30,142 bases of DNA from a virus. Location of the stretch: positions 1-30,142 of the IMG/VR virus record IMGVR_UViG_3300030117_005343. One strand, given 5' to 3'. The translations under genes and the position numbers were made by a program. Positions 2,700-28,484 of this stretch are shown one piece after another (within the stretch, counting starts at the first letter, position 1; the number at the start of each line of letters is the position of its first letter). Under the pieces are notes generated by a model that did no database searches, was not told the origin of the DNA, and was given only the letters and a program-made list of their open reading frames with translations.

Positions 2700-4364
2700 T
2701 TAATCCCAAATGTTTGATGCGGGTTGATAAAGAGATCGAGCGGCACGTCGCTTCGTTGCTTTGTGTCGATCAAGTTGTTGAATAGTAACGTGTCCCGGTA
2801 GGTAATCTGATTCTACTGAAACTGCAGCATTAGTAAAGTGTCTGCGCGAAAGAATATCAGCGGCCATAACGGCTGTACGCGCTCGGTCAAAGTGGTGAAC
2901 AGTACCGTCATCGCCTCGAACACGTTTTTTTCGAGTCCCGTCATAGTTTAATAATTGATGCAACATTCCACGACTTCGTATTTGTAGTTCGTGTTGTCGT
3001 AGCATTTGTACCAGACGTGCCTCAGACTCTTGGAGACGTTTGCTGGTCGCGTACCATCCGGGGTGATTCCTGTCCGTCCACAGAAGGTTTCTTGTACCTT
3101 GATCTTTTAGTATCGCAATGCACGCCGTGGCGTTGGATTCGACTGCCAGTAGTGCGCCAAGGTATCTTTTTTGTACAGTCTTCAATCGTTGCGCGAATCG
3201 ATCGGGTGACTCTCGGTCCTCCCAAAACGCAATCTCTCGCCATTCGAGGGCGTCCCAGACTGTGAGCGCGGACTTGTCACCAGTGCTCCCAAATCCTGCG
3301 GGGTCTGCGGTTATCAGGTACTTGTGACCCGGTTTCGGTCCTTCAAATTCATGACAAGCATATCGTCCCAAACTCGGATCCTGCTTTGCTCGCTCCAGAG
3401 ATGGTTTTAGAATCTCTGCGGGCATCACGGGATTGGTTGTTCCCAGCCATCCATCGTACGCATCCGATGGGTACTTGCAGGAAAAAAGACGAGTGTCTCC
3501 AACAAACTCAGTGTTCAAGCCTCGTCTACGAAAAGCTAGATTGTACGCTGACATGCCATCGTGGCGTGACATGTACTCTCGCTCTGGTTGTGTTGGTTTG
3601 AAGGAGTCATCAAGTTCTCTGCAGCTTTCGTCCTCCCACCATTCTAGAAACAGTGGGTGGAATCGACTGGATCCCTCCAAGGCCGAACGCCACATTTGTT
3701 CGTGATGAGATCCTGCTCGTCCCGGAGTTGACTCGAGAATAACCTTTGCGTTTGGTCGTTTGTTTACAGTTGGGAAGATGTTGATTGCAGCTTTGCGTTG
3801 CCACTGAGCTTCACCGAACTCGGTGATTACGAGCCGGTCAATGGATCGACCGATCGCAGGAGATCGGCCGCCTGCCGTCAATACCTTGATGCCTCCTCCA
3901 TGAACGAACTGCATCTGCGTTGCGCCTGCCTTCCTACCCGGAGCCAGTGGCATGCGAACATCTTTTGGTAGACGATTGTAGGCAAAAAGTATTCGCTCAA
4001 AAATATCTTCGGCGGTGTCCTGTCGTTCTGCGATGAGCAATCCTTTCACACCACTCAGATACATGCAGTCTCTCAAAAGAAGCATGACAGACACCGTCGT
4101 AATTTTTGCCTGACGGAACTTGTTGACCATGATCCATCTGTTTTCATCGTAGGCTTTCAACAGTTTTTTCTGCGTATGTGTGGGCTCCATGTACCCCGTT
4201 GACTCGTCTTCGCGGACAATCTGACACATAGATACAAAAGCGTCAGGCGTAGCGAACAAAGCTTTTACCTTGCCTTCATGTATGCCGGGTGCGCTGGCAA
4301 ACTCTGCACCACTCGTTGTGGTGTCATTTTTATTCTTGTCGTTTCGTTTTCGCGATGATGCCAT
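2700..4364 (-). CDS. terL: Terminase large subunit (ATPase and nuclease)
   Basis: This 554-aa protein is the motor that translocates DNA into the procapsid and cuts concatemers. The N-terminal ATPase has a Walker A-type loop KFRQAKITT (residues 82-90), which lacks the usual glycine of the RQ-x-G-x-T form. Its Walker B region is RLVITEFGEA (177-186), and a coupling-motif-like ESTPG lies at 211-215. The C-terminal RNase H-like nuclease shows ITADPAGFGSTGDKSA (351-366, Asp354), AVESNA (407-412, Glu409) and HHFDRARTA (490-498, Asp493), giving a plausible D-E-D metal site. Length fits the family. It is first in the leftward operon (terminase, small charged gene, portal). No strong ribosome site precedes the ATG. 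The start region faces the capsid gene across a 191-bp divergent spacer. Confidence 0.93.
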   Translation of the reverse strand: MASSRKRNDKNKNDTTTSGAEFASAPGIHEGKVKALFATPDAFVSMCQIVREDESTGYMEPTHTQKKLLKAYDENRWIMVNKFRQAKITTVSVMLLLRDCMYLSGVKGLLIAERQDTAEDIFERILFAYNRLPKDVRMPLAPGRKAGATQMQFVHGGGIKVLTAGGRSPAIGRSIDRLVITEFGEAQWQRKAAINIFPTVNKRPNAKVILESTPGRAGSHHEQMWRSALEGSSRFHPLFLEWWEDESCRELDDSFKPTQPEREYMSRHDGMSAYNLAFRRRGLNTEFVGDTRLFSCKYPSDAYDGWLGTTNPVMPAEILKPSLERAKQDPSLGRYACHEFEGPKPGHKYLITADPAGFGSTGDKSALTVWDALEWREIAFWEDRESPDRFAQRLKTVQKRYLGALLAVESNATACIAILKDQGTRNLLWTDRNHPGWYATSKRLQESEARLVQMLRQHELQIRSRGMLHQLLNYDGTRKKRVRGDDGTVHHFDRARTAVMAADILSRRHFTNAAVSVESDYLPGHVTIQQLDRHKATKRRAARSLYQPASNIWD

Positions 4365-4555: not shown

Positions 4556-5611
4556 ATGGCTATCAGTACTGAATTGCTGAACACCACGTTCGCCGATCTG
4601 CGCGGACCTCTGGTAAATTCCTTTGTTCGTAGCAACGAGTTGTTCGAAGCACTCAATGCCAAGGCTCGCATGCCAATGGAAGGCGGAACGAAGATTGAAC
4701 GTTCCTTCTCCGGTGGTGCGCCTGCCAAGGGTGTTGGTGTCTACGTGGGCGACGAGCTACTGAACATGACCCGACGTCAACAAATCCGTAAGTTTGAAGT
4801 TGAGCCCCACCGCTTGGTTATGGCTGTCAATATTCCTAAGAAGGAACTCAATCAAAACAGCGGAAAGCTCGCTATCATGCGGCTGATTGAAGAGTACCCA
4901 CAAACCTCTATGGAGGCCATGAAGGCAGACTTGAACAAGTACTTCCTGACTGGTGCCAGCCGTGGTTTGGCGTTCGCTTCTTCCGAACTCTTTGGACTTC
5001 AGACCTTTAACGGTCAGTTCTCCTCTGGTATTGGAACTGGTGTAACGCACGGGCTTCTGGACTTTGTTGCACCTGCATCGCAGAGTCAATCTGTGCAGAA
5101 TGTGACGAAGAGCAGCAGCTACTTCCACTTCAACCAATTCAACGACATCTCATCGTTCGGTGCTAACGGTATTACGCAACTGCGTAAGACCTATCGTCAG
5201 TGCTCGCACTTTGCTGGTGGCGTAGGCAAGGGTCCTGATCTCGTGATCATGGATGACGACACCTACACCAACTTCGAAGATGCTCGCCGCGATAACGTTC
5301 GTGTCACCCTCGTTGATGACAAGATTGACAAGAGCAACACCTTGGGTCTTTCCATGGGTCTTGCTTCGGTCACGTCTTCCATCGACTTGGACCGTACTGA
5401 CTCGACGTTCTCTGGCGTAGCTTCGGACGGTATCACCTACATGCTCAACACTGACTTCATTGAGTTCCCGATGCTTGAAGCACCGAACATCAGTGAGTTC
5501 AAGGAGCGAGTTGGTGATCAAGATGTCGTAACTGCAATCTTCGCAATGCAAGGAAACATTATCTGCACCAAGCTTGTGGCGCAGGGAGTTGTTTCTGGCG
5601 GCGCGGTCTAA
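4556..5611 (+). CDS. Major capsid protein (probable HK97 fold)
   Basis: This 351-aa protein likely forms the icosahedral shell. It starts MAISTELLNTTFADLRGPLV, has an N-arm and E-loop-like segment (residues about 35-65, with GGTKIERSFSGG), a central helix-rich P-domain region (EEYPQTSMEAMKADLNKYFL), and an A-domain-like segment with PDLVIMDDDTY and later YMLNTDFIEFPML. The order and size (300-400 aa) match non-processed HK97-type capsid proteins of short-tailed and marine phages. No long charged N-terminal prodomain is present, so proteolytic maturation is not suggested. It is first in the rightward operon, has a weak ribosome site (GTGAGA), and is followed after 11 bases by a decoration-like gene with a perfect ribosome site. 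The fold call rests on pattern and context, not alignment. Confidence 0.85.
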   Translation: MAISTELLNTTFADLRGPLVNSFVRSNELFEALNAKARMPMEGGTKIERSFSGGAPAKGVGVYVGDELLNMTRRQQIRKFEVEPHRLVMAVNIPKKELNQNSGKLAIMRLIEEYPQTSMEAMKADLNKYFLTGASRGLAFASSELFGLQTFNGQFSSGIGTGVTHGLLDFVAPASQSQSVQNVTKSSSYFHFNQFNDISSFGANGITQLRKTYRQCSHFAGGVGKGPDLVIMDDDTYTNFEDARRDNVRVTLVDDKIDKSNTLGLSMGLASVTSSIDLDRTDSTFSGVASDGITYMLNTDFIEFPMLEAPNISEFKERVGDQDVVTAIFAMQGNIICTKLVAQGVVSGGAV

Positions 5612-11146: not shown

Positions 11147-11147
11147 T

Positions 11148-13742: not shown

Positions 13743-14693
13743 ATGCCTAAAATTAAATTGGACTTTTCGCCGTTTTCTGACTCCGAAAAAATATTACAAA
13801 CGACGGATCCTAAAGCTGCTGCTCGAGTCGATGAGCCGTATACAGAAAACATTCATGCTCGTCCTGACATTCGAGACGCGGCTGAATTTGGGGGATTTGT
13901 CTCTTCGGGTTCAGCAATCAGAGAGGGATTGATGTCGGCCTCGAATGGTTTGTTGGATTCTTTTAATCTACACCCAGCGACAGAAATTAGAGACATACAC
14001 GTCATGCCTGAGCAAGCTTCGTATGCTCGTATGGAGTCTTACACAGACTCGTCGACCCTTTATGGTAACGGTATGGGTCAACGGAACATGGGGGAAAAGA
14101 ACGAAAGGTTTGTCACGCTTCCCGGTGTTACGATCCGTTGGTTTCAGCCCTTCGACACTACAGTCAGTCTGATGCATTGGGATTTATTTTTTAGCTACAA
14201 CAACTGGCAGGGCGAATACGTAGACAAAGAGGCGCGGTTTAGCAACAACGGCAGAAAAACAAAAATGGATCTTCAATGTATTCTAGACGGTGAGTACATC
14301 CCGTTTACTAAACGAAGAATATCAGAAAATATGTTTCACCCTGTGTCTCCCGGATTCAAGAACACGGTCCCTGAAATTCCCGGTCCCGGACGTGATCTTT
14401 ATAGTACCTACCCAAAAGGTTTAGAAAATAAACAAGGTGGTGGACCGAAGTATTGTTTTTCCGAAGCTCACTCGGCCGCACCATTAAGCCTTCATTTTGC
14501 ACAAGCACTTACCAAAGGGTTTCACGAGATTTCCGTGCAGGTCAAAACAGTAAACATTGGAGGCGAGGCCGTGTATGTTCAGAACATTGGATCTGAGCAT
14601 CGTAGTTCTCAAGTCCGTGGCCGAGGATTTTTCGAGTTATGTGCAAAGCTAAGTTTAGGAATCCGAAACGCTCGAGTGATTTCGCTTTTGTAA
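13743..14693 (+). CDS. Virion structural protein with beta-sandwich-like domain
   Basis: This 316-aa protein begins three bases after the previous stop. The first 100 residues look poorly ordered or helical. The rest is beta-rich: TLPGVTIRWFQPFDTTVSLM, LFFSYNNWQGEYVDKEARFS, QCILDGEYIPFTKRRISENM, and the C-terminal GFHEISVQVKTV plus FFELCAKLSLGIRNARVISL. The strand order (input strand, 'DGE' hairpin, 'GxHEIxVxV' strand, final strand) parallels a segment of the preceding 863-aa protein. The two may therefore be partners or diverged copies, for example in an appendage trimer. I recognise no named family. Placement between tail proteins and the ejection cassette supports a virion role. Confidence 0.6.
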   Translation: MPKIKLDFSPFSDSEKILQTTDPKAAARVDEPYTENIHARPDIRDAAEFGGFVSSGSAIREGLMSASNGLLDSFNLHPATEIRDIHVMPEQASYARMESYTDSSTLYGNGMGQRNMGEKNERFVTLPGVTIRWFQPFDTTVSLMHWDLFFSYNNWQGEYVDKEARFSNNGRKTKMDLQCILDGEYIPFTKRRISENMFHPVSPGFKNTVPEIPGPGRDLYSTYPKGLENKQGGGPKYCFSEAHSAAPLSLHFAQALTKGFHEISVQVKTVNIGGEAVYVQNIGSEHRSSQVRGRGFFELCAKLSLGIRNARVISLL

Positions 14694-14722
14694 ACGCGCT
14701 ATACTTCGCGGGGAGAGCAAAT

Positions 14723-15502
14723 ATGACACCCATTTTTCCGCCGTTCCATCCGATCGCAATCGTTTGTATTCTTGTTTTTGGGCTGATGTGTCTGTTTCTC
14801 GGAGGCACCCTGTCGACGGATGTACTCTACGCTATAGACCCTTTTACGGGGACAGCCATAGCTTTGGGTGTCGCTAAAGTTGCCTCTTCCGTCGTTAGCG
14901 GTTTGCGAGAAGCTAAGGCAGGTAGAGACGCCATTAAAAACCTTAGGGCAAGTCCAGAGTTCAAAGCTTTAAGTGCCGAACAAAAGAAAGCCCGAGAGCG
15001 TCAAGAAGCCGATTCATATGGCCTGAGTGCCGCCGCAAAGCGAAAACTTGGGATCGAATCCGGTAAGCAGTTCAAAGCCTCTGTCGCTAAGACTCAGGCC
15101 GATTTACAAGCAGGCAAAGCAGACCCAACAAAGATGGCTGGTAGCCGAGAATTGGTAGATAGGATTTCAGCCGGAGCGGCAGATACGGCAGTCAAGACTG
15201 CTGCTGCGGCTGAGGAGCAATCCGGAAAGCTCGCTATGGCTCAAAAGGCTCAAGACTCCAAGACTATCGCTACCGCAGCCAGTCAGGCACAGGCCTTAAT
15301 CGCGGCAGATGAGCAGGCAAAGCTGAAGCGAGATCAGGCGATTCTTGGTGGTGTATCAGACGCGGCAAGTATGGGCTTAGACGCGACGTTAGGTTTGGCT
15401 CAAAATCAAGCGAACCGCCGCTTGGACGCCTCAAAGGTCAACGTGGGCACCGATCCCAATATGATACCGGGGTCAACTAATACTGGGACGGGATTGTCAT
15501 GA
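14723..15502 (+). CDS. Membrane-anchored internal virion protein (gp14-like candidate)
   Basis: The protein is 259 aa from the ATG at 14723, preceded by GGGGAGAG with good spacing; this decides the start over an upstream in-frame ATG at 14639 inside the previous gene. Residues 10-30 (PIAIVCILVFGLMCLFLGG) form one strong transmembrane segment. A second mildly hydrophobic stretch, TGTAIALGVAKVASSVVSG, follows. The rest is Ala/Lys/Gln-rich helix (AEQKKARERQEADSYGLSAA onward), ending in a flexible Asn/Thr/Gly tail. A short membrane-tagged helical protein placed just before two large internal proteins matches T7 gp14, which forms the outer-membrane pore of the ejection conduit. A TATACT sequence at 14700-14705 resembles a -10 but has no -35. 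The stop overlaps the next ATG (ATGA). Confidence 0.55.
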   Translation: MTPIFPPFHPIAIVCILVFGLMCLFLGGTLSTDVLYAIDPFTGTAIALGVAKVASSVVSGLREAKAGRDAIKNLRASPEFKALSAEQKKARERQEADSYGLSAAAKRKLGIESGKQFKASVAKTQADLQAGKADPTKMAGSRELVDRISAGAADTAVKTAAAAEEQSGKLAMAQKAQDSKTIATAASQAQALIAADEQAKLKRDQAILGGVSDAASMGLDATLGLAQNQANRRLDASKVNVGTDPNMIPGSTNTGTGLS

Positions 15503-18339
15503 GTGTAGATACAAGCGCGGTGATGAAAAAGATTCTCGCAACCGCAAGCGCGAGACGATCATCTAGAAAAACCGAGTCGGATTCCGGTGAGAGCATCGAT
15601 TGGCTTAGTAGGTGGTTGGATTCTATTGAGTTAGAAGCGGATATTTTGGGGAGCATTGCGACTCATGAACTCAAGTCGTACAAGGCTGCGATCGAGTTCC
15701 ACACCAACGTGGCCGGTCTCCAGTTCAAGTATGAACAACTTGAGACTTCGACGAACGTCGACAGGGCGAAGATCTATGCGGACATTCTAAAAGCGCAAAT
15801 AGCAGCGCAAAAAACGTACTATTCGAAGACCCGCGTTGCAGACACTAATATCACAGGAGGTTTTTTGAACGCCGTCGGGGACAGTGCGGACCCGGTAGAT
15901 TTGTTGACGAGTGCAGCAGATGCGCTGTCTACCGGGATGGCCATCAATAAACTCAGTGGTAAACCGAACATTTCTCCCACTGATCCTGCGTTTACCGCAA
16001 CAATGCGGGCACTTCTGGAGGGTGCGAATAGGCACAACGGCAAAAAAATTGTTGTGTTTGGTCGAGATGGACTCGTCGATATAAGAGCGACACAAGCAAA
16101 TATTAACGCTCGAAAAATGGCGGGTCCCGAAATTATAAACTTCGTCAACTCGATGAAGGCGTACAACGCAAAACGACTGCAAGAGATTGGAATTGACGAA
16201 GGCTACGAGGAGGCGATTACACTTGCCGATAATCGATATCAGGCTGCTGTAGCTAAGCTCCGAAAGGATCCAAATGACGCTGAGGCTTTGAATGATCTTG
16301 AGGCCATCAATGAGCAGATTGAATCGGGCAGGATCCAATTTTTGGCTGATGCAAATCTCGTTAGTAAAGAAGAAGCCCAGAAAGAACTTGAGATCATCGA
16401 TCTTAGAATGGATGCGGCAGAAGAGGCTCGCACCGCAGCGCTGTACGCAAAGAGTAAACTTGGTGGCGATGATCAGGATGAAGTCCGCGAAGGTTTAGCG
16501 AAGGGTGTGAGCAACTCTGCGTTTCGGGCGTGGGCGGCAGATCATGGTTTCGATCGACTTGGTTCTGTTGATTTCGACAAGAATGGTAAGGTAGATGTCG
16601 ACACGTACAAAGAGGGTGGAGACGATGTTGCTGCTCTGTTGGCGTGGCAGAAACAATCTCTACGACAACCGGGCAACTATGGATTCCGTGCCGTCAACTC
16701 TGGTGAGATCTGGCGTGTCGAACTCAAGGACGGTACCGAGGTAACAGGGCACCGCTTGCGTCGTCATGCGGCAGACCCTAACGGGGCGATTCGCATTGTT
16801 ACGGCCGAGGGTGCTCGACTGATTACTCCTGCAGAGGCATCACAGGCACAGATTCTTCAAAGACAAAAAACTGGGTTGAGCCGTATCGATCGACGTGCTC
16901 GACGAATGTTCAAGAAGAATAAATTTAAGTACGAAAAGCTGGGGGCTACTGCTCGATTCCGTGCGGGTGAAATAGCGAAAGCCGACTTAGCCCAGACCGA
17001 AAATCTTGAGTACATCGTCGATCCTGAAACGGGTCAAGGTATTACGAAGCGGGAGTTTGAGACTGCAAAGCAGAACGCTCGCACCAGTGCTTCTTTTATT
17101 TTTGAATCCGACGGGATGATGTACATCGTCGATCCTGCGACGGCGAAAGTTTACTCCGCAGATTTTGCTGGAAACAAGTTTACGGAACTCACAGATGAGC
17201 AAAGGGACGCGATACGGGACAAGATTCCTGTCGACGGTCAACGCGAGTATTTCGGTGTAGGCAAGGATGGCAAGCCTGTAAAGCTTTTCCGTACGGCCGA
17301 TATCGAGGCCCTTGTCAAAGGAGAGTTGGAGATAGACGGTGACTTTACGGGCTTCGACTCTGATGAGTTCAATGCGTTGTTGGAGCAAGACACGACGTTG
17401 GCCGGGCTCGGTTTTGAGATGTCTCCTGATGTTCCCCCTACCCCTGTTTCTGGTACGACATCGAGATTGGCTGGTTTCGACATTGTTGAGCAGGAAGACA
17501 CTCGACGTATATCGGATGAAGATGAAGTAAAAGCAAACGATGCTCTAGACTCATATTTGGTTTTGCGACCGGTAGGCGAGCCTCCAAATATTGATGATGG
17601 TCAGGACGACAACGTGAGTGGTCCCCGAGCGGTGGGCGGCGATGTAACTGCTGAAATGATTAAGTCGTTGCTCGATCCCAATAGAACACCGGAAGAAAAA
17701 GCTAAGTTGTCCGGGATTTACAACGAGCGTTTTCCGGAGCTTTACAGGCAGGCCTACTTCGGGCTGGAATTTGATAAACTTGATTTCGATCCGACGGATC
17801 CCACGTTTGTGCCGCCCCCGCCAAAGGAGGATCGAGGGCCTTCTTCTGAAGAAACAGAAGTTGCTCCAACAGATGCTGCTCCGGATGCTGCTCCGGATGC
17901 GACACCTCCAGCGGTCGATACTTCTGCTCCCGGAGTCGGAAAGAAAACACCGAAGTCTTTGAAGTCAGTATCTATGATTGACGTTGGCGCACTGCCAACA
18001 ATGGACACAAGCACTGGCGGTAAGTCAAAGATTGTTCGATCAACTCAACCACCTACACCGGATATTGATGCTGGGTCAATGTCTATGTTCAATGGTATGA
18101 ACCTGCAGGGGGTTTTTGGGGCGGGCAAACAAGAGGACAAAACGTCAACTGATGAGAAAGCAGCGCAACCAGATGACAAACCTGATAGCATTGATTCTCC
18201 ATCCGTACCCGGAACAGGAGGAATTTTCGGTGGCCTCAGAGATCGTCGTGAGAAGCGAAAGAATAAACGTAAAAAAGAAAAACGTGAAGAAGAAAAAACT
18301 AAAGTAGATACGACTTCTGATGATGAGGATGTAGAATGA
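15499..18339 (+). CDS. Large internal virion / ejection protein (gp15-position)
   Basis: This 946-aa protein starts at an ATG overlapping the previous stop by four bases, so translation is coupled. The N-terminal 300 residues are helical (HELKSYKAAIEFHTNVAGLQ; long stretches with EAL, DAEALNDLEAI). Residues 358-369 (DFDKNGKVDVDT) match an EF-hand-type calcium loop except for a Thr at position 12. A duplicated motif EYIVDPETG / MYIVDPATAK follows (about 505-550). The C-terminal 200 residues are disordered: Pro/Thr/Ala-rich with a 12-bp DNA tandem repeat giving DAAPDAAPDA (about 792-801), then a Lys/Arg/Glu tail (REKRKNKRKKEKREEEK). Its position fits T7 gp15, an inner-core protein ejected with DNA. 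No enzyme domain is recognised. Confidence 0.58.
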   Translation: MSVDTSAVMKKILATASARRSSRKTESDSGESIDWLSRWLDSIELEADILGSIATHELKSYKAAIEFHTNVAGLQFKYEQLETSTNVDRAKIYADILKAQIAAQKTYYSKTRVADTNITGGFLNAVGDSADPVDLLTSAADALSTGMAINKLSGKPNISPTDPAFTATMRALLEGANRHNGKKIVVFGRDGLVDIRATQANINARKMAGPEIINFVNSMKAYNAKRLQEIGIDEGYEEAITLADNRYQAAVAKLRKDPNDAEALNDLEAINEQIESGRIQFLADANLVSKEEAQKELEIIDLRMDAAEEARTAALYAKSKLGGDDQDEVREGLAKGVSNSAFRAWAADHGFDRLGSVDFDKNGKVDVDTYKEGGDDVAALLAWQKQSLRQPGNYGFRAVNSGEIWRVELKDGTEVTGHRLRRHAADPNGAIRIVTAEGARLITPAEASQAQILQRQKTGLSRIDRRARRMFKKNKFKYEKLGATARFRAGEIAKADLAQTENLEYIVDPETGQGITKREFETAKQNARTSASFIFESDGMMYIVDPATAKVYSADFAGNKFTELTDEQRDAIRDKIPVDGQREYFGVGKDGKPVKLFRTADIEALVKGELEIDGDFTGFDSDEFNALLEQDTTLAGLGFEMSPDVPPTPVSGTTSRLAGFDIVEQEDTRRISDEDEVKANDALDSYLVLRPVGEPPNIDDGQDDNVSGPRAVGGDVTAEMIKSLLDPNRTPEEKAKLSGIYNERFPELYRQAYFGLEFDKLDFDPTDPTFVPPPPKEDRGPSSEETEVAPTDAAPDAAPDATPPAVDTSAPGVGKKTPKSLKSVSMIDVGALPTMDTSTGGKSKIVRSTQPPTPDIDAGSMSMFNGMNLQGVFGAGKQEDKTSTDEKAAQPDDKPDSIDSPSVPGTGGIFGGLRDRREKRKNKRKKEKREEEKTKVDTTSDDEDVE
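17011..17137 (+). repeat. Direct 16-bp repeat pair within the 946-aa gene
   Basis: TACATCGTCGATCCTG occurs at 17011-17026 and 17122-17137, in frame, encoding YIVDP twice. The flanks differ in DNA and protein, so this is a short internal motif duplication rather than a recent large one. Confidence 0.7.
17872..17895 (+). repeat. 12-bp tandem repeat, two perfect copies
   Basis: GATGCTGCTCCG is repeated twice head-to-tail and followed by a partial third copy (GATGC). It encodes DAAPDAAPDA in the disordered C-terminal part of the 946-aa protein. In-frame copy changes would alter linker length without a frameshift. Confidence 0.8.
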
Positions 18340-18605: not shown

Positions 18606-20000
18606 ATGCGAGTTTTTGGGCAGACGCCGAAACCTAAGGTTGTCAATAAACCGCCGCAGCCTGAGGTTGTTCCAGCACCTAAATCACCGGAGTCAAAGAC
18701 CAAAGGCGCTAAGCCGAAGGTACAACCAACCATGGATGCGGATGCGGGTACGCCTGCTTCGGTAACTATCGAGCCGATTATTGGAATAGATGACGCGGTT
18801 AAAGCTGCGGAGTCGGTCTCCTACGAAGACAAACTAAAGGTTATCGACAGCAAAATCGACAGACTGAGGGAGGTTGTGCGGTCTCAGGATGCTCAGCGAG
18901 AACGTTTTGGTTCACCGATTCTTTCAGCCACCATTGCTGAGCGAGAAGCACAATCTTTAGATAAAGATCTTTTAGAATCACAAAGGCGGGACAATAAAGA
19001 CAAACTTCGGGATCTTCTCAAAGAAAGGTCAGATTTGGTTCGCGCAAACGTTCCCGGAGCCTTGGCGGCTGGTATGGCCCCAATCACACCAATCCTGCCC
19101 GACACGAGTCCGGATATGTTAGCCGGTCCCGTTTACAATCGTAGTCCTCAGCGCCAAGAGGAAAGGCTTCGAGAGGTAGAAAGTAATATATTCACGGCGG
19201 AGCAAATGTATTCCAAGCCGTCGATGGAATGGTCGACTATAGGGCCGAGAAGAAGACAAACAGTAATTACACCAAGAAGTTTTGACAAAGATGGTAAACT
19301 CAGAATTGGTGACCCGCAGAGATACGCAGTAAGTCGTTTACGAGAAGGATTCCTTTACGACTTTGGACTGCGCGGTAAACGAGGTGAAATCGATTTACTG
19401 CCGGATATTATTGATCCTATGGCGGCAGGAGTCTACACACTTCTAGATCGAATTCTAACACCTACGCTGGATACTATTACTTTCGGGCCTGTGAGAGGTT
19501 TGTTTGGGGAGCCGTCGTTTAGTGGCCAGATGTATCCCTCGACCGTGATGAATCCGGCTCGATACATTGACCCCAATACGGGAGAAAAAACTTTTTTTGC
19601 GCAAGGCAGGCCGCCCTCACTGACAGAACAACAAAATCGACAAGGTGGAATTATTCGTGCTCCTCGTACGCCAAGAAAAACTCGAACCGGCAAAACGTTG
19701 ACGCCTGAGTTAATGCTTCAAAATGCTCGGAAGGCTTTGGAGCTAAGGACTAATATGATTATCTCCGCTGAAGGCGCGATAGCAGAATTAAGAGAAAAGC
19801 TACGAAATCGTGAGGTTGCTACATCGGATCAGCCAAACGCTTATGCTTCGATTTCGGCGTTCGAGGATACCATCGAACAGTTATCAGCAGAAAGCGATCA
19901 ATTGCGACGTATCATAGGTGTTAGTATCCCACGGTCTGAGGCGGCGGAAGAAATCGCTCCAATGTATGCAGGATCTGGAATCGTACCAACAGAAGACTAA
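18606..20000 (+). CDS. Unknown virion-cassette protein, 464 aa
   Basis: This protein begins at an ATG with GAGG seven bases upstream, three bases after the previous stop. The first 60 residues are Pro/Lys-rich and disordered. Residues about 70-150 are a charged coiled coil (EDKLKVIDSKIDRLREVVRS, ESQRRDNKDKLRDLLKERSD). A middle globular part contains YAVSRLREGFLYDFGLRGKR and GVYTLLDRILTPTLDTITFG. The last 90 residues are again helical (NARKALELRTNMIISAEGAI, IEQLSAESDQLRRIIG). The family is unknown to me. Its place directly before the giant protein suggests an inner-core or ejection partner. A phrase FDKDGKLRIGD resembles a calcium loop but lacks the first Asp. Confidence 0.6.
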   Translation: MRVFGQTPKPKVVNKPPQPEVVPAPKSPESKTKGAKPKVQPTMDADAGTPASVTIEPIIGIDDAVKAAESVSYEDKLKVIDSKIDRLREVVRSQDAQRERFGSPILSATIAEREAQSLDKDLLESQRRDNKDKLRDLLKERSDLVRANVPGALAAGMAPITPILPDTSPDMLAGPVYNRSPQRQEERLREVESNIFTAEQMYSKPSMEWSTIGPRRRQTVITPRSFDKDGKLRIGDPQRYAVSRLREGFLYDFGLRGKRGEIDLLPDIIDPMAAGVYTLLDRILTPTLDTITFGPVRGLFGEPSFSGQMYPSTVMNPARYIDPNTGEKTFFAQGRPPSLTEQQNRQGGIIRAPRTPRKTRTGKTLTPELMLQNARKALELRTNMIISAEGAIAELREKLRNREVATSDQPNAYASISAFEDTIEQLSAESDQLRRIIGVSIPRSEAAEEIAPMYAGSGIVPTED

Positions 20001-20012
20001 TCGGAGACACTG

Positions 20013-23000
20013 GTGGCAGAAACTCAAAAGCAGATGGAGGATCGTTTAGCTCGACTGAAAGCCAGCGACCCCGGCGACATGACGATTGATCTGGATGACG
20101 TTCCTACGGGGGACAAGAAGCCTGCAAAGAAAGGCACTGGTGTTGACGAAAAGCCACCAACCGAAGATGAGAAATTAGGTAAGTTTGAAAAATTTCCTGA
20201 GTTCGAGGAGATGGACATTGATCTCCTCACGAAAGACCTTCAATTGAAACGGCTAGGTATTCGGATTGCGCGTGAGGCAGAATCGACAAAGCGAATAAAT
20301 CCAAAGCTTGCGGCAGAAAAGAAAGAAAAAAACGAACCTATTCTCGCGTCGGACGAAATCCTCAAAGCGCATGCAGAGCTTGCGGGATTTACTGTCGAAG
20401 ATTTTAAAAAGGCTGCCGAGTTTCAGGAAGCACCAATCCAAAACTTTTTCCAAGATATTGGAGATGAGGGTCGACCTGTCCAAGAAGTATTTGATGCCTA
20501 CAAAACGCAAGAAAGTCTGTGGTCAAAAACACAGCAACAACGAAAAGTGTTGGCTAGAGGTGAAAAGGTTCGAATCAAAGGTATCGAACGAGTGGTGACG
20601 GGTGAAAAGAAATTGTCCCCGGAAAAAAGAAAGGAGACACTTCAAGTCCTCTTAGCGGCGAAAGACCCCAGATTGAAGAGCAGAATTTTTACGGGTGACG
20701 CCGACAGCGGCGAGGCTGAAAATGCAATCGCCAAGCCGGGTCAGGCTGGGTACGACCGTCTCATGATGCAGGCTAACAAGCTCATCGATACAGAAATCGC
20801 GGACGACAAGGAGCAGGCAGAAATTTATCAGAGTCACATTGCGGCTCTGGGGCCACCAACGACTGGCGCGATGATTCGTAACACTCTTGGTGAGCGAAAG
20901 TTTCAAGAGATGGTAAATCAGATCTCCACTCATAAGCTCAACAAAATGGCTAAACGCCAAGGTGTTCAGAGAGGGACAGAAGCATATGAGCAATTGAGAG
21001 CTAAATCGAATCGTGACGCCCTGTACGAGGCGGCACTTCTCAGGACCGTGAATAAATACTATCTCCCCGGATTCGTGCAGTACGATCAGATTGACCCCGG
21101 AAACGTGCGTGGTGCGGAAGACACCAAGGATAAGTGGTGGATCACGCAAGCCATGAAAAACGCTGCGGATGTACGCATTGAGGTCGTCGGATTGGACCCT
21201 AAGGGTATTCCTGTTTATCGACTCACATCTCCTACATGGCATATCTTTGAGATGGCGGATTCGGTTCAGGCAGGTATTGCAGGTGCCATTGAGAGATTGT
21301 CCGACGATGAGAGAGATGAGAGCATCTTGACTGCGATTCGAGAAGGATCCCTTGATGGTATTCGTAATAGACGAGACTTCTTGAAGGCTGCGTTGTCGAG
21401 TGAGGCTGCTGAGAACGGTGGTCTGGCTTCGTTTGCTATGGGGTCTGCAGGGCTTGTTGCTGCCATCCTCACTCCTGATCTCTTTATGGGTGCTGCCGCA
21501 GTCGCACGAACAACTAAAAGGGTTGCACAAATTGCGTCGGAAACTGCCGGGTTCCGTCGAGCCGCACCGGTTTTGGTCGAATCTTTGGGAGATGGAGCGA
21601 CAAACTACGCCAAAACCGAAGATGTGCTGGAGGCAGCAGAGGCTGCTGTCGCTAGAGGCGATTATGACGCGGCACTATTAATACTCGAAGAAGCTAAAAC
21701 GCTTGCCAAAAAGGGTGACGAGGCTTTGTCCAAAGCCCGTGGTGAGAACGTTGAGATTGCACGAGAAGTAGATCGATTGGATGTCGACATCGCTGCTCGC
21801 ATGGGCAAAAGGGTACCGGAAAGCACCTTCGCAGAGGGTAAGAGGGTCGCATCGAAGATACCCGGATCATTTGGAGAAACTGCCCAGAATGTTCATATGG
21901 GCGCTCGACGGGTAATGTTGAGGGGTGAGTCACTTGATCAGTTCACGGGATTTCCTGAGCTTCTGAGCTTTGAGAAGATGATCGATTCATTGAAAGAAAG
22001 TGTCGATATTCTTAAGTCAGGAGATCTCAAAGACGCCTTTAATGTCAAATTAAGAGAGATGGTTGCAAACCCATTTCGTAATGCCGTCGATGAACTTTTG
22101 ACCCAAACAGGTGTAGGTGTTGCAGATGTCAATCGCAGTGTTGCCCTAAGACAGCAATCTTTGGATTTGATGACATTCCTCAACAGCACAAAGAGTACTA
22201 GAATTTTACGAGATGACCCTCAGTTGTATCGATCAGAGGTCATTCGTATAGCGAAGAAAATTGATTTCGACGATGCAGATAAAGAAAAGGCCTTTTTTAC
22301 GGCACTTGAAAAACGATTCCCAGACCTTTTAGACGAAGCTAATAATATTGGTAAAACACTGTCTAAAGTTTCCATCGCAGAGGCTCGTCAGGCCACATCG
22401 AGAGGGATTGCTGCAATTAGGGGGAATCTTGAGTCTCGAGCAGCCTCATCGGCGTTTATTCGCGAACGTGTGGCCGAACAGGCCAAGGTGGCGGCTGAAC
22501 CTCTTTTGATAAAGCTAACGGATCGATATGCCGAAGTTGGCCGAGATCGCCTTTCGCCTCAAGCTCTTCAGATTCAGGACGCTATTTTGGACATCTATCC
22601 AAATATAGAGCCCGCAGAAATACGAAAGTTTACTCGTATGATGGATCAAGAGGCGAAGAAGTTTGCAGACTCTAAAAAAGGTAGAACTGTCGCAGACTTC
22701 TACGCGGAGAGATTTGGTGGTATCAAGAAGGGGTTGGACGACGTTGCCGATGAAGTAAAGCCGAAGGACGTTAAACCGGAGACACAGAAGGATCCCACGA
22801 TTGATGAGGTTACTCCAAAGGATGTTGCTCCGGAACCACAACCAGCACCACCAGCACGAGATCTTTTGGATGATGTTGAGGCCGGAAATATTTCTAAGTT
22901 GCCGAAGGGGCTTCAGGATGCTCTACGTGGAATTGCTAACGACGCGAAGAAAAAAGGTGGGTTTTCAGGACCAATTCAGGGTGTAAAACCTCAGCAGGTT

Positions 23001-26000
23001 TTGCCTGAGGTTGAAGACGCGTTTGCCGATTTGATGAATGCTGATCGACGAACCCAAGAAATAAGACCAGCGATACACGTATTAGAATCATCCTCGCCGG
23101 GTTTGAGTGCTCGTACTTTATATAATCACGTCTCTAAGATGACACGCATGGACGAAGTGTGTGAGTTTTTAGCCCGTCATGCCGAGCTTGACTCCACAAG
23201 ACTGTTGGCTCAAAAAATACTGCCGAACCTACGTCGTGATCCGGGACAGTTTCGTGTCATCAGCGGTAAAGTCGATGACGTCGACCTTAGTGTGCGAGAC
23301 GCTCATGGATTGTATTTTCCTAATTCCCATAGAATATTTATACGCGGCGCACAAAAACCGACAAGATTGGGCGATGAAATTCCGATCGAGACGGGTCTGA
23401 CCGAAGAAACTCTTATTCATGAGTTGCTTCATGCCGCGACGGCAGTGTTCATCCAAAAAAACCCGAACGCTAAAGTTGTTCGAGATTTAGATCAACTTAT
23501 TTCCGAAGTTCGAACTGGTTTGAGTGATTTGATCAAACAGATGATTGATGCGGGGCGAGTCAATCAACTCGGTTCGGTTCGCTTCTACGCACGTAATTTT
23601 GATACGTATATTGGTTCCGCCGACGAGTTTTTAGTTCGGGCAATGACCGATCCAAAGTTCCAACGACTTTTGAAGCTAATTAAAGTAACGCCTAGATTAA
23701 GTATCTGGAATAAGTTTACGCGCGCTGTGGCATCTATTTTTGGTATTCGCAAAGAAGATGAAACAACCGCTCTGTCACAGGCGTTGATTGCCAGTGAAAG
23801 ACTTATACAGAAGTCAGTAAAATTCGATCAACGACCTGCGTCAGATGCTGAACCCATCGTTAAGGTTCTTCGCCCTACACAAGGCACGCCCGGAGTCGAT
23901 GTAGCTGAAACAGCGTTTCCTGACGGGGCTATGGGCGATGTTTTTATCACATCGCCGAAGCTACGAAACCGTCCAGAGAATGGGATCACTCTGCAAAGGG
24001 ACAATCTTAGCGACTTTCTTTCTCTTTCGGGTATCCGAATTCCTCGACCAGATTCGAAGCAAGTTGTTCGTGTTTCAAACAGCTTCATTGACGTTTCTTT
24101 GAGGGGTAGAGGATTCGGCACAGACCTTTATCTAAGGGCATTGAAGTACGCACAAAATGAAGGAGTTGCTTTTGCGAGTGACGTCAGCCCAACGGGCGAA
24201 GCTCTTCGGGTTTATGAAAAATTGCGTTCGATGGGAGTTGAGTTCCGTCGATTACCTGTTCGTCTTGCCGACGGTAGTTTAGGGGAGGCCTCGTACATAG
24301 ACGCTGCGTCTCTGGCTAAAATTGATCTTGATGATCTGGCGGTAACTCATGGTTTGAGAAATCGAACAAATATGTTTGGTCCATATGATAGTTTCGACAA
24401 GATTCCATCGAAGGTCCTCTACTCAAAACTATCCGACACATCGGATCCTTTGGTTGTTGAATTTCTGGAAAACGGGCAAGCAATCATTCGCGCTATTGGT
24501 GAGACCGCCAGTGTTGATGACTTTATTCGTGTTCTTGGTCGAATCTCACGCAGAGATCTTGATGAAAAGGGCATGAATATTGTTACGGATTGGCTCAAAA
24601 CTAGGGGTATTAATGTCGGTTTTCAGGGTGCAAAGTTTACATCTGCCAACCCTGCTGACATTGAAAGGGCTGAGTCTGAGTTCGCGTCGGCCTTTGCTGC
24701 CTACGTTGACTCTGGTAGGGCAACAAAACCCGAACTTGTAAAGCCTTTCAACGCAGTTCGTGAGTGGGTTTCAGGTAAATATACTGCTCTTAGGAGTGCT
24801 GAAGCCGATGGAGCGCCGTTAGAAATCGACGATCGACTGACACTTCAACTCGACAAGATGATGCGGGTTCCTTCGAAGCGTGTCGGCATGCCAAACATTA
24901 TAGGCATGCTCAAAGACGCACTCATCAAACCAGACTTGGGTGGGACGTCGGTTGATGTTTTGGAGGAAATTGCTCGAGAAAGTTTCCGATTGGGTACACC
25001 AATTAAGAAGAAAGACCTTCAGGAGCAGTTCACCAAGGCTCTGAAAGCGTACAACGCGGGCCGCAAGGAAGAGGCCGTTATAAGGTTGCCGGGACCCGTA
25101 TCTATACGTGGATGGAATGCGAGTTCAAGTACTGGAGCTAAAGAGTTCACTCTCGATGAGCTAGCTGACATACAACAAAGTTTGGAAACTGCAAAGCGTA
25201 TGGAGCTTCAGGAGTCCAGAAAGCTCGGTATGCCAACGGCTGAACGAGCTATTAAAGAAAGAAATCCATCAGAGTTGGTCGATCAGTGGGTGACACAAAA
25301 CCCGGTACGGGGCGCGTTCCGGTTCATGTATTTGGGTGGTGACGCGTTCGCAGATATGAGGCTGCTGCCTCCAGTCGTCCGTGATGCAATCATGGCCGGT
25401 ACACGGGCAGTGCAGCAAGCCATCGGTGATGCGATCACTTTGGTTGCAGAAAAAGACATTGCTAAACTGACCCAACTTTTGACCGGCGATCCAAACGTTC
25501 AGTTTACAAAAGGTGGTCGATCAGCAATTAGTGCTGGTCACGATCACATGGCGTCTGTTTCACACAACTTAGGGCGGTACTTCTCATCGGTGAATCAAAC
25601 AAACTTGGGCATTGTGCGGAACTTTGTTCAGAGAGTAAGAGTGTTGGACTCCACGGCGAAGGCGGCGGCAGAACTAAGTGCGGAAGAATTGGGCAAGGTA
25701 TCCGAGATCGTCAATGATCTTATATCTGGAGATAAGGCTTCACGTTTTGTCACCGAGGTTTTTAAGGCGGCTGGATTTACGGGTAGTCGCATCGAGCCAA
25801 AGTTCTTCACGGAACCAGCTACGGGCCTCGATCCCGGCGGTCTGCTTGAAATATTGATGTATTACGGCAACGTATCCGGTCGTGTTGATCCTGCGATGAA
25901 AACTCAAGATGGTCGGCAAGTGTTTGCTTTTTTCAACGAATCTATGAAGAACCGTGGTGCTCAGCGTGTGACATCGAAGAACATGTTTACAGGTCTTTAC

Positions 26001-28484
26001 GGAGACATCAACGCAAAGTTTACAGATGACCCCACAGTAGCTAACCGGGTTGCGGTGTTGATTGCTGGGCATGGTCAAGCTCACGCGACGAAAAAACGTT
26101 GGGTCGACCTTGGGGTGGCGGCGGACGAAGATCTGGCAAGATCAATGCGCCAATACATCGTCGGTGAGTCTATCGATCCCGATGATGTCGTTCGAGTCAA
26201 AAACGCTTTCGACTCTCTTGGTTACAACCCCAACATGGTCGAGGGATACGCTTTGGACGGCGTAACTATGTTTATACCCAGAGCCGGTAGAGAGCGTTTG
26301 AATATGGTTCTCGCTCAAGCTCAGGATCCTTCGCTGCTCAAAACAGACAATATGGATACTATTTCTGCCTTGAACGAAATCTCATCGGCGGGAGAAAGAA
26401 TCATTACTGGTGCCGGTACAAACAGCACTACGGCACTTAGTTTCGCACTTTTTTACCGATACCTGAAAACACGAATGGTTCGTGGTCACTTTGTTCTTAA
26501 GTCTCGATATTTTTGGATGAACACATTCGACCACTTCAATCAAACGGCTCAACGCGCCGGGTTTAGAACTGCCGCGATATCAACGACTCGTATGTTCACG
26601 CAGAATGTCCTTTCAAACCCAATAGGTCAGGCGTTTGTTTTTGCGGCAAGAAGAACGGGTAAGGGAGATGCCGCAGAGGCTGCGCGTCGGGTTTTGCAAG
26701 AAGGTGGGGATAAAGCTGCCGAGTGGGCGGGTAAACTGACTCGCGGGTCAAAATGGCACATCAAACTCAATCCAATATTGGAGGGTGCGGACGGCATCGT
26801 AATGATTGCCGGAAAGCCCTACAGGAACGCAGATATTAGGCAGGTGGCTCTTGAAGCAGGTATTTTTGCCTCATTCGACACCAGTCAGTTGGGTACAAAA
26901 ATTCAAAATGTCGGGAACCTTTTTCTTCAGACTGAGGCGAAGAAGGGTCGATTGACAAAACTTGGAACAGATATCCTCGACGACGTGAAGGGGGCATCGG
27001 AAGACATCGCAGAAGCGTGGGCCGAACGAGAGCGACTCGGATGCATGATTACCCTGATGGAAGCGGGTATCGACCCGAGAACTGCAGCAAAGATAAGCAT
27101 CGAGGCGCTGTACGATTACGCAGGAAGCATGTCTAAGGGTGATCGAAACTTTCTGCTCAACATATTCTTCCCATTCTGGGCCTTCCAGAAAAATGCAAAC
27201 CGACAGATTTTCGACGCGATTTTCAGCCCAGAGGGCGCTTACAGGCTCGGTGTCATGCGTAGAGCCTATGACAAGGGCAGTGAATACCTTAGTTATCTTA
27301 CCTATGGTGCAATGGTCGACGAGAACGGTATTGCCGTCGACTCTTTGCCCCCAGAACTACGAAGCACATATTTTGCTTTCAAAAAGCAAATGCAAGACCT
27401 GTATGGTGAGAACGGAAAAATTCCAGCACCTATACAAGAGGAAATACGATTGTTTGTCGCGCAGTCCATGATCAAGACAACCGGCGGTAAAGTCATGCAG
27501 GGGTCTGTGTACTACGACGATTTCATCGATATCGCTGCGTCGATCAAGGGTGAGGATGGTAAATCTGTGGGCTTAGATCGAAGAGCACTCGCTTCGTACT
27601 ACATGCCGATACCTGATAAGTCTGGGCTGCAGACCTACTTCAGAGATAGGATTTCGTTCCCTCTGCCCTACGCACCAGAGAAGTTTGGTGAAACGCCCGT
27701 AAACTACGCTCCTCCCGAAGATTTTCAGAACAGCACTAAAGCTTGGAATGATTTGTATCGACAGAAGAGAGCCGACGCTCCTTACATGGCTTTCTTTATG
27801 CCTGAACCGACTTATGTTGCAGCGTTCAATCACTTCTCGTACTTGATGGCTACTAAGATCCTTATGATGCAAAAAATGGAGGACATGGGTGACCGTTGGT
27901 TTACGGACGAAGACGATGGTTCGGATGCCATCACACCACTTGCTGCCGTTAATGCACTGCTAAGCCCCGCTCGTGCGCCGGTTCTTTCAGACGTGCAGGC
28001 AAGTTTGGGTACTGGTGGAGCGACCATTCCGAAGAGAGTCGCTCAAGACCTTGTTCATTTTTTCGACTATCACCTGATTGATTTGCTCGAATTGGATGAG
28101 TCCGAAGATATTTTTGACATTCAATTGCAACAACAACGGGATGAAGCCGAGGGTCGAGAGCCTCGAGATCTGCCGATAAAACCTATAGATGCGCCTATTG
28201 TTCCGACAAAACGATACTACATGATGCCCGGCGTAGCACAAATGTTGTTTATCAATAGTCCGCTTGGAGAGTTGAACGACATCCTCCTGAAGGCAGAAAA
28301 GACTCCGATGGAAAAAGCATCCGGCATAAGAGGTGACGTTCAAAAGTGGTTGAGAGTGTTCACGGGTCTGGATCAAAGAGAAATTATCAGAGACAGGACG
28401 GTGATGTCAGAACTGTTCCGGGCCGAAGATCAAACGTCTGACGTCACAAAGGAAAGGGCCGGAGAAAAAACTGAACTAGATTGA
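20013..28484 (+). CDS. Giant internal virion protein with metallopeptidase and GNAT domains
   Basis: A 2823-aa protein with a GTG start preceded by GGAGA at 5-base spacing. In order: a charged helical N-terminus; a hydrophobic segment (469-498, GGLASFAMGSAGLVAAILTP onward); coiled-coil regions; a Pro/Lys/Glu linker (about 912-955). Then a metallopeptidase-like domain with GLYFPNSHRIFIRG and HELLH at 1136-1140, followed by SADEFLVRAM, where Glu1205 could be the third zinc ligand. A GNAT-like domain follows (about 1335-1420) with the acetyl-CoA loop RGRGFGTDLY (from 1364) and EALRVYEKLRSMGVEF. The last 1000 residues are helical and include IFFPFWAFQKN (2384-2394), a pattern seen in other giant phage proteins. 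By position it replaces T7 gp16 (1318 aa). The enzymes may act in the virion, on the cell envelope, or in the host cytoplasm after ejection. No transglycosylase motif is seen. Confidence 0.72.
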   Translation: MAETQKQMEDRLARLKASDPGDMTIDLDDVPTGDKKPAKKGTGVDEKPPTEDEKLGKFEKFPEFEEMDIDLLTKDLQLKRLGIRIAREAESTKRINPKLAAEKKEKNEPILASDEILKAHAELAGFTVEDFKKAAEFQEAPIQNFFQDIGDEGRPVQEVFDAYKTQESLWSKTQQQRKVLARGEKVRIKGIERVVTGEKKLSPEKRKETLQVLLAAKDPRLKSRIFTGDADSGEAENAIAKPGQAGYDRLMMQANKLIDTEIADDKEQAEIYQSHIAALGPPTTGAMIRNTLGERKFQEMVNQISTHKLNKMAKRQGVQRGTEAYEQLRAKSNRDALYEAALLRTVNKYYLPGFVQYDQIDPGNVRGAEDTKDKWWITQAMKNAADVRIEVVGLDPKGIPVYRLTSPTWHIFEMADSVQAGIAGAIERLSDDERDESILTAIREGSLDGIRNRRDFLKAALSSEAAENGGLASFAMGSAGLVAAILTPDLFMGAAAVARTTKRVAQIASETAGFRRAAPVLVESLGDGATNYAKTEDVLEAAEAAVARGDYDAALLILEEAKTLAKKGDEALSKARGENVEIAREVDRLDVDIAARMGKRVPESTFAEGKRVASKIPGSFGETAQNVHMGARRVMLRGESLDQFTGFPELLSFEKMIDSLKESVDILKSGDLKDAFNVKLREMVANPFRNAVDELLTQTGVGVADVNRSVALRQQSLDLMTFLNSTKSTRILRDDPQLYRSEVIRIAKKIDFDDADKEKAFFTALEKRFPDLLDEANNIGKTLSKVSIAEARQATSRGIAAIRGNLESRAASSAFIRERVAEQAKVAAEPLLIKLTDRYAEVGRDRLSPQALQIQDAILDIYPNIEPAEIRKFTRMMDQEAKKFADSKKGRTVADFYAERFGGIKKGLDDVADEVKPKDVKPETQKDPTIDEVTPKDVAPEPQPAPPARDLLDDVEAGNISKLPKGLQDALRGIANDAKKKGGFSGPIQGVKPQQVLPEVEDAFADLMNADRRTQEIRPAIHVLESSSPGLSARTLYNHVSKMTRMDEVCEFLARHAELDSTRLLAQKILPNLRRDPGQFRVISGKVDDVDLSVRDAHGLYFPNSHRIFIRGAQKPTRLGDEIPIETGLTEETLIHELLHAATAVFIQKNPNAKVVRDLDQLISEVRTGLSDLIKQMIDAGRVNQLGSVRFYARNFDTYIGSADEFLVRAMTDPKFQRLLKLIKVTPRLSIWNKFTRAVASIFGIRKEDETTALSQALIASERLIQKSVKFDQRPASDAEPIVKVLRPTQGTPGVDVAETAFPDGAMGDVFITSPKLRNRPENGITLQRDNLSDFLSLSGIRIPRPDSKQVVRVSNSFIDVSLRGRGFGTDLYLRALKYAQNEGVAFASDVSPTGEALRVYEKLRSMGVEFRRLPVRLADGSLGEASYIDAASLAKIDLDDLAVTHGLRNRTNMFGPYDSFDKIPSKVLYSKLSDTSDPLVVEFLENGQAIIRAIGETASVDDFIRVLGRISRRDLDEKGMNIVTDWLKTRGINVGFQGAKFTSANPADIERAESEFASAFAAYVDSGRATKPELVKPFNAVREWVSGKYTALRSAEADGAPLEIDDRLTLQLDKMMRVPSKRVGMPNIIGMLKDALIKPDLGGTSVDVLEEIARESFRLGTPIKKKDLQEQFTKALKAYNAGRKEEAVIRLPGPVSIRGWNASSSTGAKEFTLDELADIQQSLETAKRMELQESRKLGMPTAERAIKERNPSELVDQWVTQNPVRGAFRFMYLGGDAFADMRLLPPVVRDAIMAGTRAVQQAIGDAITLVAEKDIAKLTQLLTGDPNVQFTKGGRSAISAGHDHMASVSHNLGRYFSSVNQTNLGIVRNFVQRVRVLDSTAKAAAELSAEELGKVSEIVNDLISGDKASRFVTEVFKAAGFTGSRIEPKFFTEPATGLDPGGLLEILMYYGNVSGRVDPAMKTQDGRQVFAFFNESMKNRGAQRVTSKNMFTGLYGDINAKFTDDPTVANRVAVLIAGHGQAHATKKRWVDLGVAADEDLARSMRQYIVGESIDPDDVVRVKNAFDSLGYNPNMVEGYALDGVTMFIPRAGRERLNMVLAQAQDPSLLKTDNMDTISALNEISSAGERIITGAGTNSTTALSFALFYRYLKTRMVRGHFVLKSRYFWMNTFDHFNQTAQRAGFRTAAISTTRMFTQNVLSNPIGQAFVFAARRTGKGDAAEAARRVLQEGGDKAAEWAGKLTRGSKWHIKLNPILEGADGIVMIAGKPYRNADIRQVALEAGIFASFDTSQLGTKIQNVGNLFLQTEAKKGRLTKLGTDILDDVKGASEDIAEAWAERERLGCMITLMEAGIDPRTAAKISIEALYDYAGSMSKGDRNFLLNIFFPFWAFQKNANRQIFDAIFSPEGAYRLGVMRRAYDKGSEYLSYLTYGAMVDENGIAVDSLPPELRSTYFAFKKQMQDLYGENGKIPAPIQEEIRLFVAQSMIKTTGGKVMQGSVYYDDFIDIAASIKGEDGKSVGLDRRALASYYMPIPDKSGLQTYFRDRISFPLPYAPEKFGETPVNYAPPEDFQNSTKAWNDLYRQKRADAPYMAFFMPEPTYVAAFNHFSYLMATKILMMQKMEDMGDRWFTDEDDGSDAITPLAAVNALLSPARAPVLSDVQASLGTGGATIPKRVAQDLVHFFDYHLIDLLELDESEDIFDIQLQQQRDEAEGREPRDLPIKPIDAPIVPTKRYYMMPGVAQMLFINSPLGELNDILLKAEKTPMEKASGIRGDVQKWLRVFTGLDQREIIRDRTVMSELFRAEDQTSDVTKERAGEKTELD

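Follow-up and report, generated by a model that had tools for sequence, protein, structure and literature searches.

A giant ejection-type phage protein combining predicted zincin and GNAT acetyltransferase domains in one chain

Introduction

Ejection proteins of phages are usually treated as channel parts accompanied by a murein hydrolase. T7 gp16, whose gene adjoins those of the tail fibres, has a real N-terminal SLT transglycosylase domain (PF01464, E 1.7e-31). The counterpart at the same gene position in phiKMV (Autographiviridae), gp37 (L009:5029-9042), considered here together with the internal virion protein of PDB 9sfn, is recorded as an 'internal virion protein with endolysin domain'. 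In the tetrameric ejection protein (TEP) gp48 of PhiM1 (PDB 8vb2; L201:6198-9989) the segment Asp268-Asp528 was published as 'endolysin/exotransglycosidase-like'; this domain is inserted in the hub, borders the DNA groove and was modelled inside the capsid (PMC11440229).

Giant phage proteins with zincins and GNATs were described in 2017 in a survey of 'polyvalent' proteins (PMC5512222). In the survey, the layout of the polyvalent zincins is given as a helix, three strands, a HExxH helix and a Glu helix, and the phage polyvalent GNATs, which are RimI-like, are found in multidomain proteins predicted to be delivered with the DNA, usually beside an ART domain (PMC5512222). A zincin is also present as the C1 domain of the virion RNA polymerase of N4, a giant virion protein that is ejected.

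Here we describe a gp16-position ejection-type protein of this 'polyvalent' kind, the domain combination of which is new and unusual. It is encoded in a virus record of 30,142 bases, which was analysed whole and is called the window below. A first-pass annotation had set the protein against a background of zincins and GNATs in delivered phage polyvalent proteins, and this background is indeed to be found in the 2017 survey (PMC5512222).

Results

The giant gene and its neighbourhood

The open reading frame of 2823 codons proposed by the first-pass annotation, and the motifs singled out in it, HELLH, Glu1205 (within DEFL at residue 1204) and RGRGFG, were all found where they had been placed (Table 1). 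For the giant's length and composition the chance expectation of HExxH is about 0.014 motifs, so that HELLH is unlikely to be noise. For the GNAT-like loop pattern [RQ]xxGx[GA] the expectation is about 3.9 occurrences; such a loop by itself therefore proves nothing and it is conservation that decides. A chance origin of the loop was rejected because, despite this expectation, the loop is conserved in the family alignment. When the whole giant was compared with Pfam and PHROGs no match above cut-off was obtained, and family profiles were therefore used instead. Comparison with a relative that is 96% identical gave a pN/pS of 0.105, which shows that purifying selection acts on the gene.

Table 1. 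Features of the window, with positions, strand and basis of assignment
Feature	Position	Strand	Basis
Portal protein, P22/SU10-like	685..2469	-	PF16510 E 4.1e-18
Terminase large subunit	2700..4364	-	phrog_2 E 2.3e-19
Major head protein	4556..5611	+	phrog_9953 E 7.8e-23
287-aa protein, one hydrophobic segment, gp14-like position	14639..15502	+	position and hydropathy
946-aa protein, gp15-like position	15499..18339	+	position only
464-aa protein directly upstream of the giant, probable ejection-module member	18606..20000	+	position only
Giant gp16-position ejection-type protein, 2823 aa	20013..28484	+	GTG start, no internal stop
Zincin (gluzincin-type) domain, residues 1028-1286	23094..23870	+	hmmsearch, hhalign, AlphaFold, BFVD Foldseek
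HELLH, residues 1136-1140	23418..23432	+	predicted zinc ligands His1136, His1140; predicted general base Glu1137
Glu1205, predicted third zinc ligand	23625..23627	+	49/49 non-redundant relatives; second predicted active-site helix
GNAT acetyltransferase domain, residues 1302-1436	23916..24320	+	Pfam in relative, PDB profile matches, AlphaFold, Foldseek
RGRGFG acetyl-CoA loop, residues 1364-1369	24102..24119	+	family alignment
Invariant Tyr1373 and Tyr1401	24129 and 24213	+	family alignment
Conserved C-terminal body, family-specific, residues ~1463-2420	24399..27272	+	common to all relatives, including those without zincin

The plus strand carries the head protein, tail and ejection genes and the minus strand the terminase and portal genes. 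The order of tail genes followed by the 287-aa, 946-aa and 464-aa proteins and the giant is much as in T7 and phiKMV. No convincing family was found for the 464-aa protein, and the 946-aa protein has no similarity to its T7, phiKMV or PhiM1 counterparts; neither it nor an 881-aa protein of the same tail/ejection block (11094-13739) has a significant Pfam or PHROG match. In the 96% relative, a contig of 71.7 kb, the giant is followed by genes for 649-, 396- and 398-aa proteins, which from their position are plausibly tail fibres. That contig further encodes a family A DNA polymerase, a SNF2/ResIII helicase and an SSB, and in its polymerase gene (L023:1497-4277) a uracil-DNA-glycosylase-like domain is fused to the family A DNA polymerase. 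None of the 84,980 bacterial and archaeal genomes searched yielded a relative, and hence neither a prophage nor a hint of the host was obtained.

The placement of the giant at the T7 gp16 position was thus borne out as a matter of gene order. T7 gp16 itself differs in that it has no match to the zincin profile and no GNAT, and a SLT transglycosylase of its type was rejected for the giant. In an alignment with phiKMV gp37, the giant showed no resemblance outside the zincin; since only the zincin aligns, the ejection role is argued from position. The giant therefore resembles gp16 in where it is encoded, and a common descent of the channel body is not supported. Neither Pfam nor PHROGs gave a match to its C-terminal body (residues 1463-2420), which is better conserved among all relatives than any other part of the giant. 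The ejection-type setting suggested at the outset is supported by the gene order and by virion relatives, PhiM1 among them, and on these grounds we consider it quite likely that the protein is housed in the capsid and leaves it before or together with the DNA.

The zincin domain

With the giant as tblastn query, matches were obtained in 90 phage records (88 of Pseudomonas and two of Serratia phages); those listed fall on the HExxH stretch and, where inspected, belong to gp16-position proteins. In an alignment of the window clade with the phiKMV-type sequences 18 columns are invariant, HExxHAAT and Glu1205 among them, and a scan of viral contigs with the resulting profile yielded at least 342 relatives. 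The domain mostly lies within reading frames of ~1300 to 5200 aa in the 80 zincin relatives examined. At a mean column identity of 22%, Glu1205 is identical in 49 of 49 non-redundant relatives, and Gln1217 and Leu1220 in 48 of 49. Because HExxHAAT was the pattern by which these relatives were retrieved, the invariance of HExxH partly reflects selection, and it is the conservation of Glu1205, Gln1217 and Leu1220 that is independent of it.

In hmmsearch against the PDB, the zincin profile matched the phiKMV-like protein 9sfn (E 1.3e-60), PhiM1 gp48 (8vb2, 4.6e-15), gp10 of 23sg (2.3e-11) and N4 virion RNA polymerase (11fw, 1.7e-7) and, weakly, the lethal factor catalytic domain (0.013). N4 was missed by the default HMMER filters and was recovered at full sensitivity as well as by hhalign, in which the profile aligned with an N4-family alignment at 99.0% (E 2.4e-18). 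An AlphaFold model built from 49 sequences (pLDDT 80.8, pTM 0.80) has a helix (33-48) before a three-stranded sheet (52-56, 72-75 and 80-84), HELLH in a predicted helix at 104-122 of the domain and Glu1205 in another at 176-185, an order of elements that is the one given for polyvalent zincins in PMC5512222. The Foldseek matches of the model in BFVD include predicted polyvalent, internal core and virion RNA polymerase proteins; against the PDB nothing fell below E 0.001, the best weak match being lethal factor. No Pfam metallopeptidase family matched the window's zincin domain, and the best such match among the 49 members was SprT-like at 0.0023; membership of the fold is not defined by a Pfam match of this kind. 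A proline-rich, linker-like stretch precedes the domain and the GNAT follows directly after it.

From profile comparison and modelling we conclude that the giant carries a zincin domain with a complete predicted HExxH + Glu ligand set, and that this domain shares homology with the zincin (C1) of N4 virion RNA polymerase as well as with a domain that the phiKMV and PhiM1 proteins at the gp16 position contain. The earlier proposal of a zincin fold with Glu1205 as predicted third ligand therefore stands, upheld by the constancy of the Glu, by the N4, PhiM1 and phiKMV-like profile matches and by the modelled layout; its HExxH and Glu are kept within the zincin clade, the former partly through selection.

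The giant and N4 virion RNA polymerase share a HELxHA(A/S)T helix and a NEFMAW Glu helix, but the giant has no detectable RNA polymerase part, has a GNAT instead, and is not alignable with the N4 protein over the rest of the chain. A hidden virion RNA polymerase was rejected, as there is neither a Pfam RNA polymerase match in the giant nor a significant N4 alignment outside the zincin. The zincin of phiKMV gp37 is about 25% identical and keeps all ligands, but gp37 has half the giant's length, no GNAT and no further detectable homology to the giant. In PhiM1 gp48, which is much shorter and also lacks a GNAT, the profile covers residues 374-516, with HEAAH and a later Glu. Pfam assigns no domain at all to phiKMV gp37 and detects no transglycosylase in it or in the PhiM1 TEP. 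Judged by these alignments, the 'endolysin/exotransglycosidase-like' domain of PhiM1 appears to be this zincin, and the 'endolysin domain' of phiKMV gp37 is probably the same, under a label that was probably carried over from T7. The main text of the 2017 survey does not mention phiKMV (PMC5512222).

The GNAT domain

The PF00583 score of the window protein, 16.1 bits, is below the gathering threshold of 20.7, and that of the relative L002, 23.8, is above it. A profile of 14 GNAT sequences matched solved GNATs in the PDB (2g3a, E 3.6e-5; 1yvk, 1e-4). The corresponding AlphaFold model of 14 rows is only moderately confident (pLDDT 75.7) and is ordered as strands, loop-helix, strand, helix and two strands; its listed Foldseek matches in the PDB are almost all acetyltransferases (probability 0.97-1.00, TM ~0.4-0.54). 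In the 14-row alignment Gly1367, Tyr1373 and Tyr1401 are invariant and the loop varies conservatively. A scan with a closer set of seven rows found no members beyond those already known. The Pfam score of L002, the profile matches and the Foldseek result agree with the GNAT fold that had been suspected, and the loop on which that suspicion was founded is kept across the family. The outcomes that the first-pass annotation had named as refuting its reading, namely that neither fold would be predicted or that homologues would lack the motifs, thus did not arise for the HExxH and Glu of the zincin clade or for the GNAT loop of the family. Alignment and modelling lead us to conclude that a predicted GNAT domain with an intact acetyl-CoA loop lies directly downstream of the zincin, and we hold the structural identification of both domains with high confidence.

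Distribution of the two domains in the family

The giant's own relatives are 15 in number (L001-L007 and L012-L019). The GNAT loop is present in 14 of them, L017 being the exception, and the zincin in six distinct members: the window, L001, L002 (with the near-identical L007), L003, L004 and L016. The GNAT is thus the constant part of the family, and the zincin is an accessory module that marks one clade, because a whole sister clade is without it. All seven zincin-less GNAT relatives with a complete N terminus have Phage_lysozyme2 close to it; in the zincin-bearing records this domain was found nowhere, including contigs of 71.7 and 73.2 kb. In a tree of the shared body the zincin group and the lysozyme group each form one clade, which means that the difference between them is one event, and repeated replacement of one domain by the other was rejected. 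L005, the sister to the zincin clade, is N-terminally truncated and has no zincin between its N-terminal part and the GNAT; this points to a gain of the zincin on the branch leading to the six members.

The slot before the GNAT seems to accept different modules. In L006, L014 and L018, Rho_N (HeH/SAP-like) domains lie just before the GNAT, near the place of the zincin in the window clade. L017 (9554-22234), a relative of 4227 aa, has two HExxH motifs as well as an ART-PolyVal domain (E 1.3e-15), and no GNAT loop was found in it.

Discussion

We propose that the giant is an internal (ejection) protein of the virion of a short-tailed phage and serves at the same time as a carrier of polyvalent effectors. 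After ejection, the zincin would act as a protease on host-side proteins and possibly free parts of its own chain too. The GNAT depends on acetyl-CoA, hence on the cytoplasm, and would acetylate a host protein there; the outcome may be help to early takeover or counter-defence. Taken as a whole, an ejected giant delivering a zincin protease and a GNAT effector is the explanation that we favour, at slightly better than even chances, and for the catalytic action on host proteins in particular we would put the chances a little below even.

It is also possible, if unlikely, that the zincin is a self-processing protease that cuts the giant inside the capsid, on its passage or once it has arrived, freeing the GNAT and other parts. 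Autoprocessing was proposed for polyvalent zincins in the 2017 survey and cleavage of P1 DdrB is known (PMC5512222), and the linker-like stretch before the zincin and the GNAT straight after it would suit such a cut. However, N4 packages its virion RNA polymerase, which also has this domain, without processing (PMC5512222), and the PhiM1 homologue was modelled in place within the capsid (PMC11440229). Moreover, the zincin-less relatives retain the GNAT and the C-terminal body, so that in them cleavage by a zincin is not needed. Self-cleavage during passage through the tail, which the first-pass annotation had raised, found no support, and the N4 and PhiM1 observations weigh mildly against it.

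The lysozyme of the sister clade brings up another reading, in which the zincin is a wall-opening peptidase that replaces it. The distribution of the two domains in the family is in keeping with this, and no Pfam cell-wall hydrolase was detected in the virion proteins of the window, nor among those genes of the 96% relative that were scanned. Yet the tree reduces the swap to one event, so that the correlation has n = 1, and the Pfam absence is weak evidence because the lysozyme-like domain that was reported for PhiM1 OEP likewise escapes Pfam. In addition, PhiM1 was reported with both a lysozyme-like domain and the domain that matches the zincin (PMC11440229), and the closest kin of the zincin are predicted proteases and not cell-wall enzymes (PMC5512222). 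We regard a wall peptidase as quite improbable, and a low probability attaches also to a zincin that acts without catalysis, as a zinc-stabilised structural module for packing or ejectosome assembly. The latter would fit the requirement of the zincin-containing region for N4 encapsidation (PMC5512222) and the location of the PhiM1 domain in the hub beside the DNA groove (PMC11440229), but Glu1137, for which a zinc site of purely structural function has no use, is retained together with the ligands; this retention is in part a product of the HExxHAAT selection, but the catalytic Glu is also present in N4, PhiM1 and 23sg, which were found by routes other than the HExxHAAT search.

Host-facing parts of proteins often show raised amino-acid change. 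In the comparison with the 96% relative, the share of amino-acid-changing differences is above that of the rest of the chain in the zincin (p 0.006) and in the GNAT (p 0.0006), the counts being small. The silent rate is likewise raised in the GNAT region, and the faster change of the two domains could alternatively reflect relaxed constraint or recombination.

If the reassigned domain is a protease, many ejection proteins at the T7 position would carry an injected zinc protease; this would extend to Pseudomonas and Pectobacterium phages that are well studied and have structures solved, so that it could be examined in laboratory phages. The most far-reaching version is that the widespread ejection domain called 'endolysin' or 'exotransglycosidase-like' for phiKMV-type phages and in one cryo-EM model is a zinc protease that is injected and that occurs in N4 virion RNA polymerase as well; in the present lineage it would have taken the place of a lysozyme beside a constant GNAT effector, protease and acetylase being delivered in one chain at entry. 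This version we hold tentatively and consider rather doubtful. The conservation of the GNAT across a family of uncultured phages points to acetylation by a virion-delivered enzyme as a candidate function. Three points are new within the portion of the open-access literature covered here, although priority is not certain: the pairing of zincin and GNAT in a gp16-position giant that is not a polymerase, the contrast between a lysozyme in one sister clade and a zincin in the other, and the reassignment of the domain. The phage polyvalent GNATs of the 2017 survey resemble the one described here in being part of a multidomain protein, but in the giant the neighbour is a zincin and not, as is usual in those proteins, an ART domain (PMC5512222). 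When the GNAT profile was run on other zincin giants, only L096 matched besides the window's own clade. This reading frame of 5178 aa has a zincin and, elsewhere in the chain, a match to the GNAT profile (E 9.4e-9), and is possibly a second, separate zincin-GNAT pairing.
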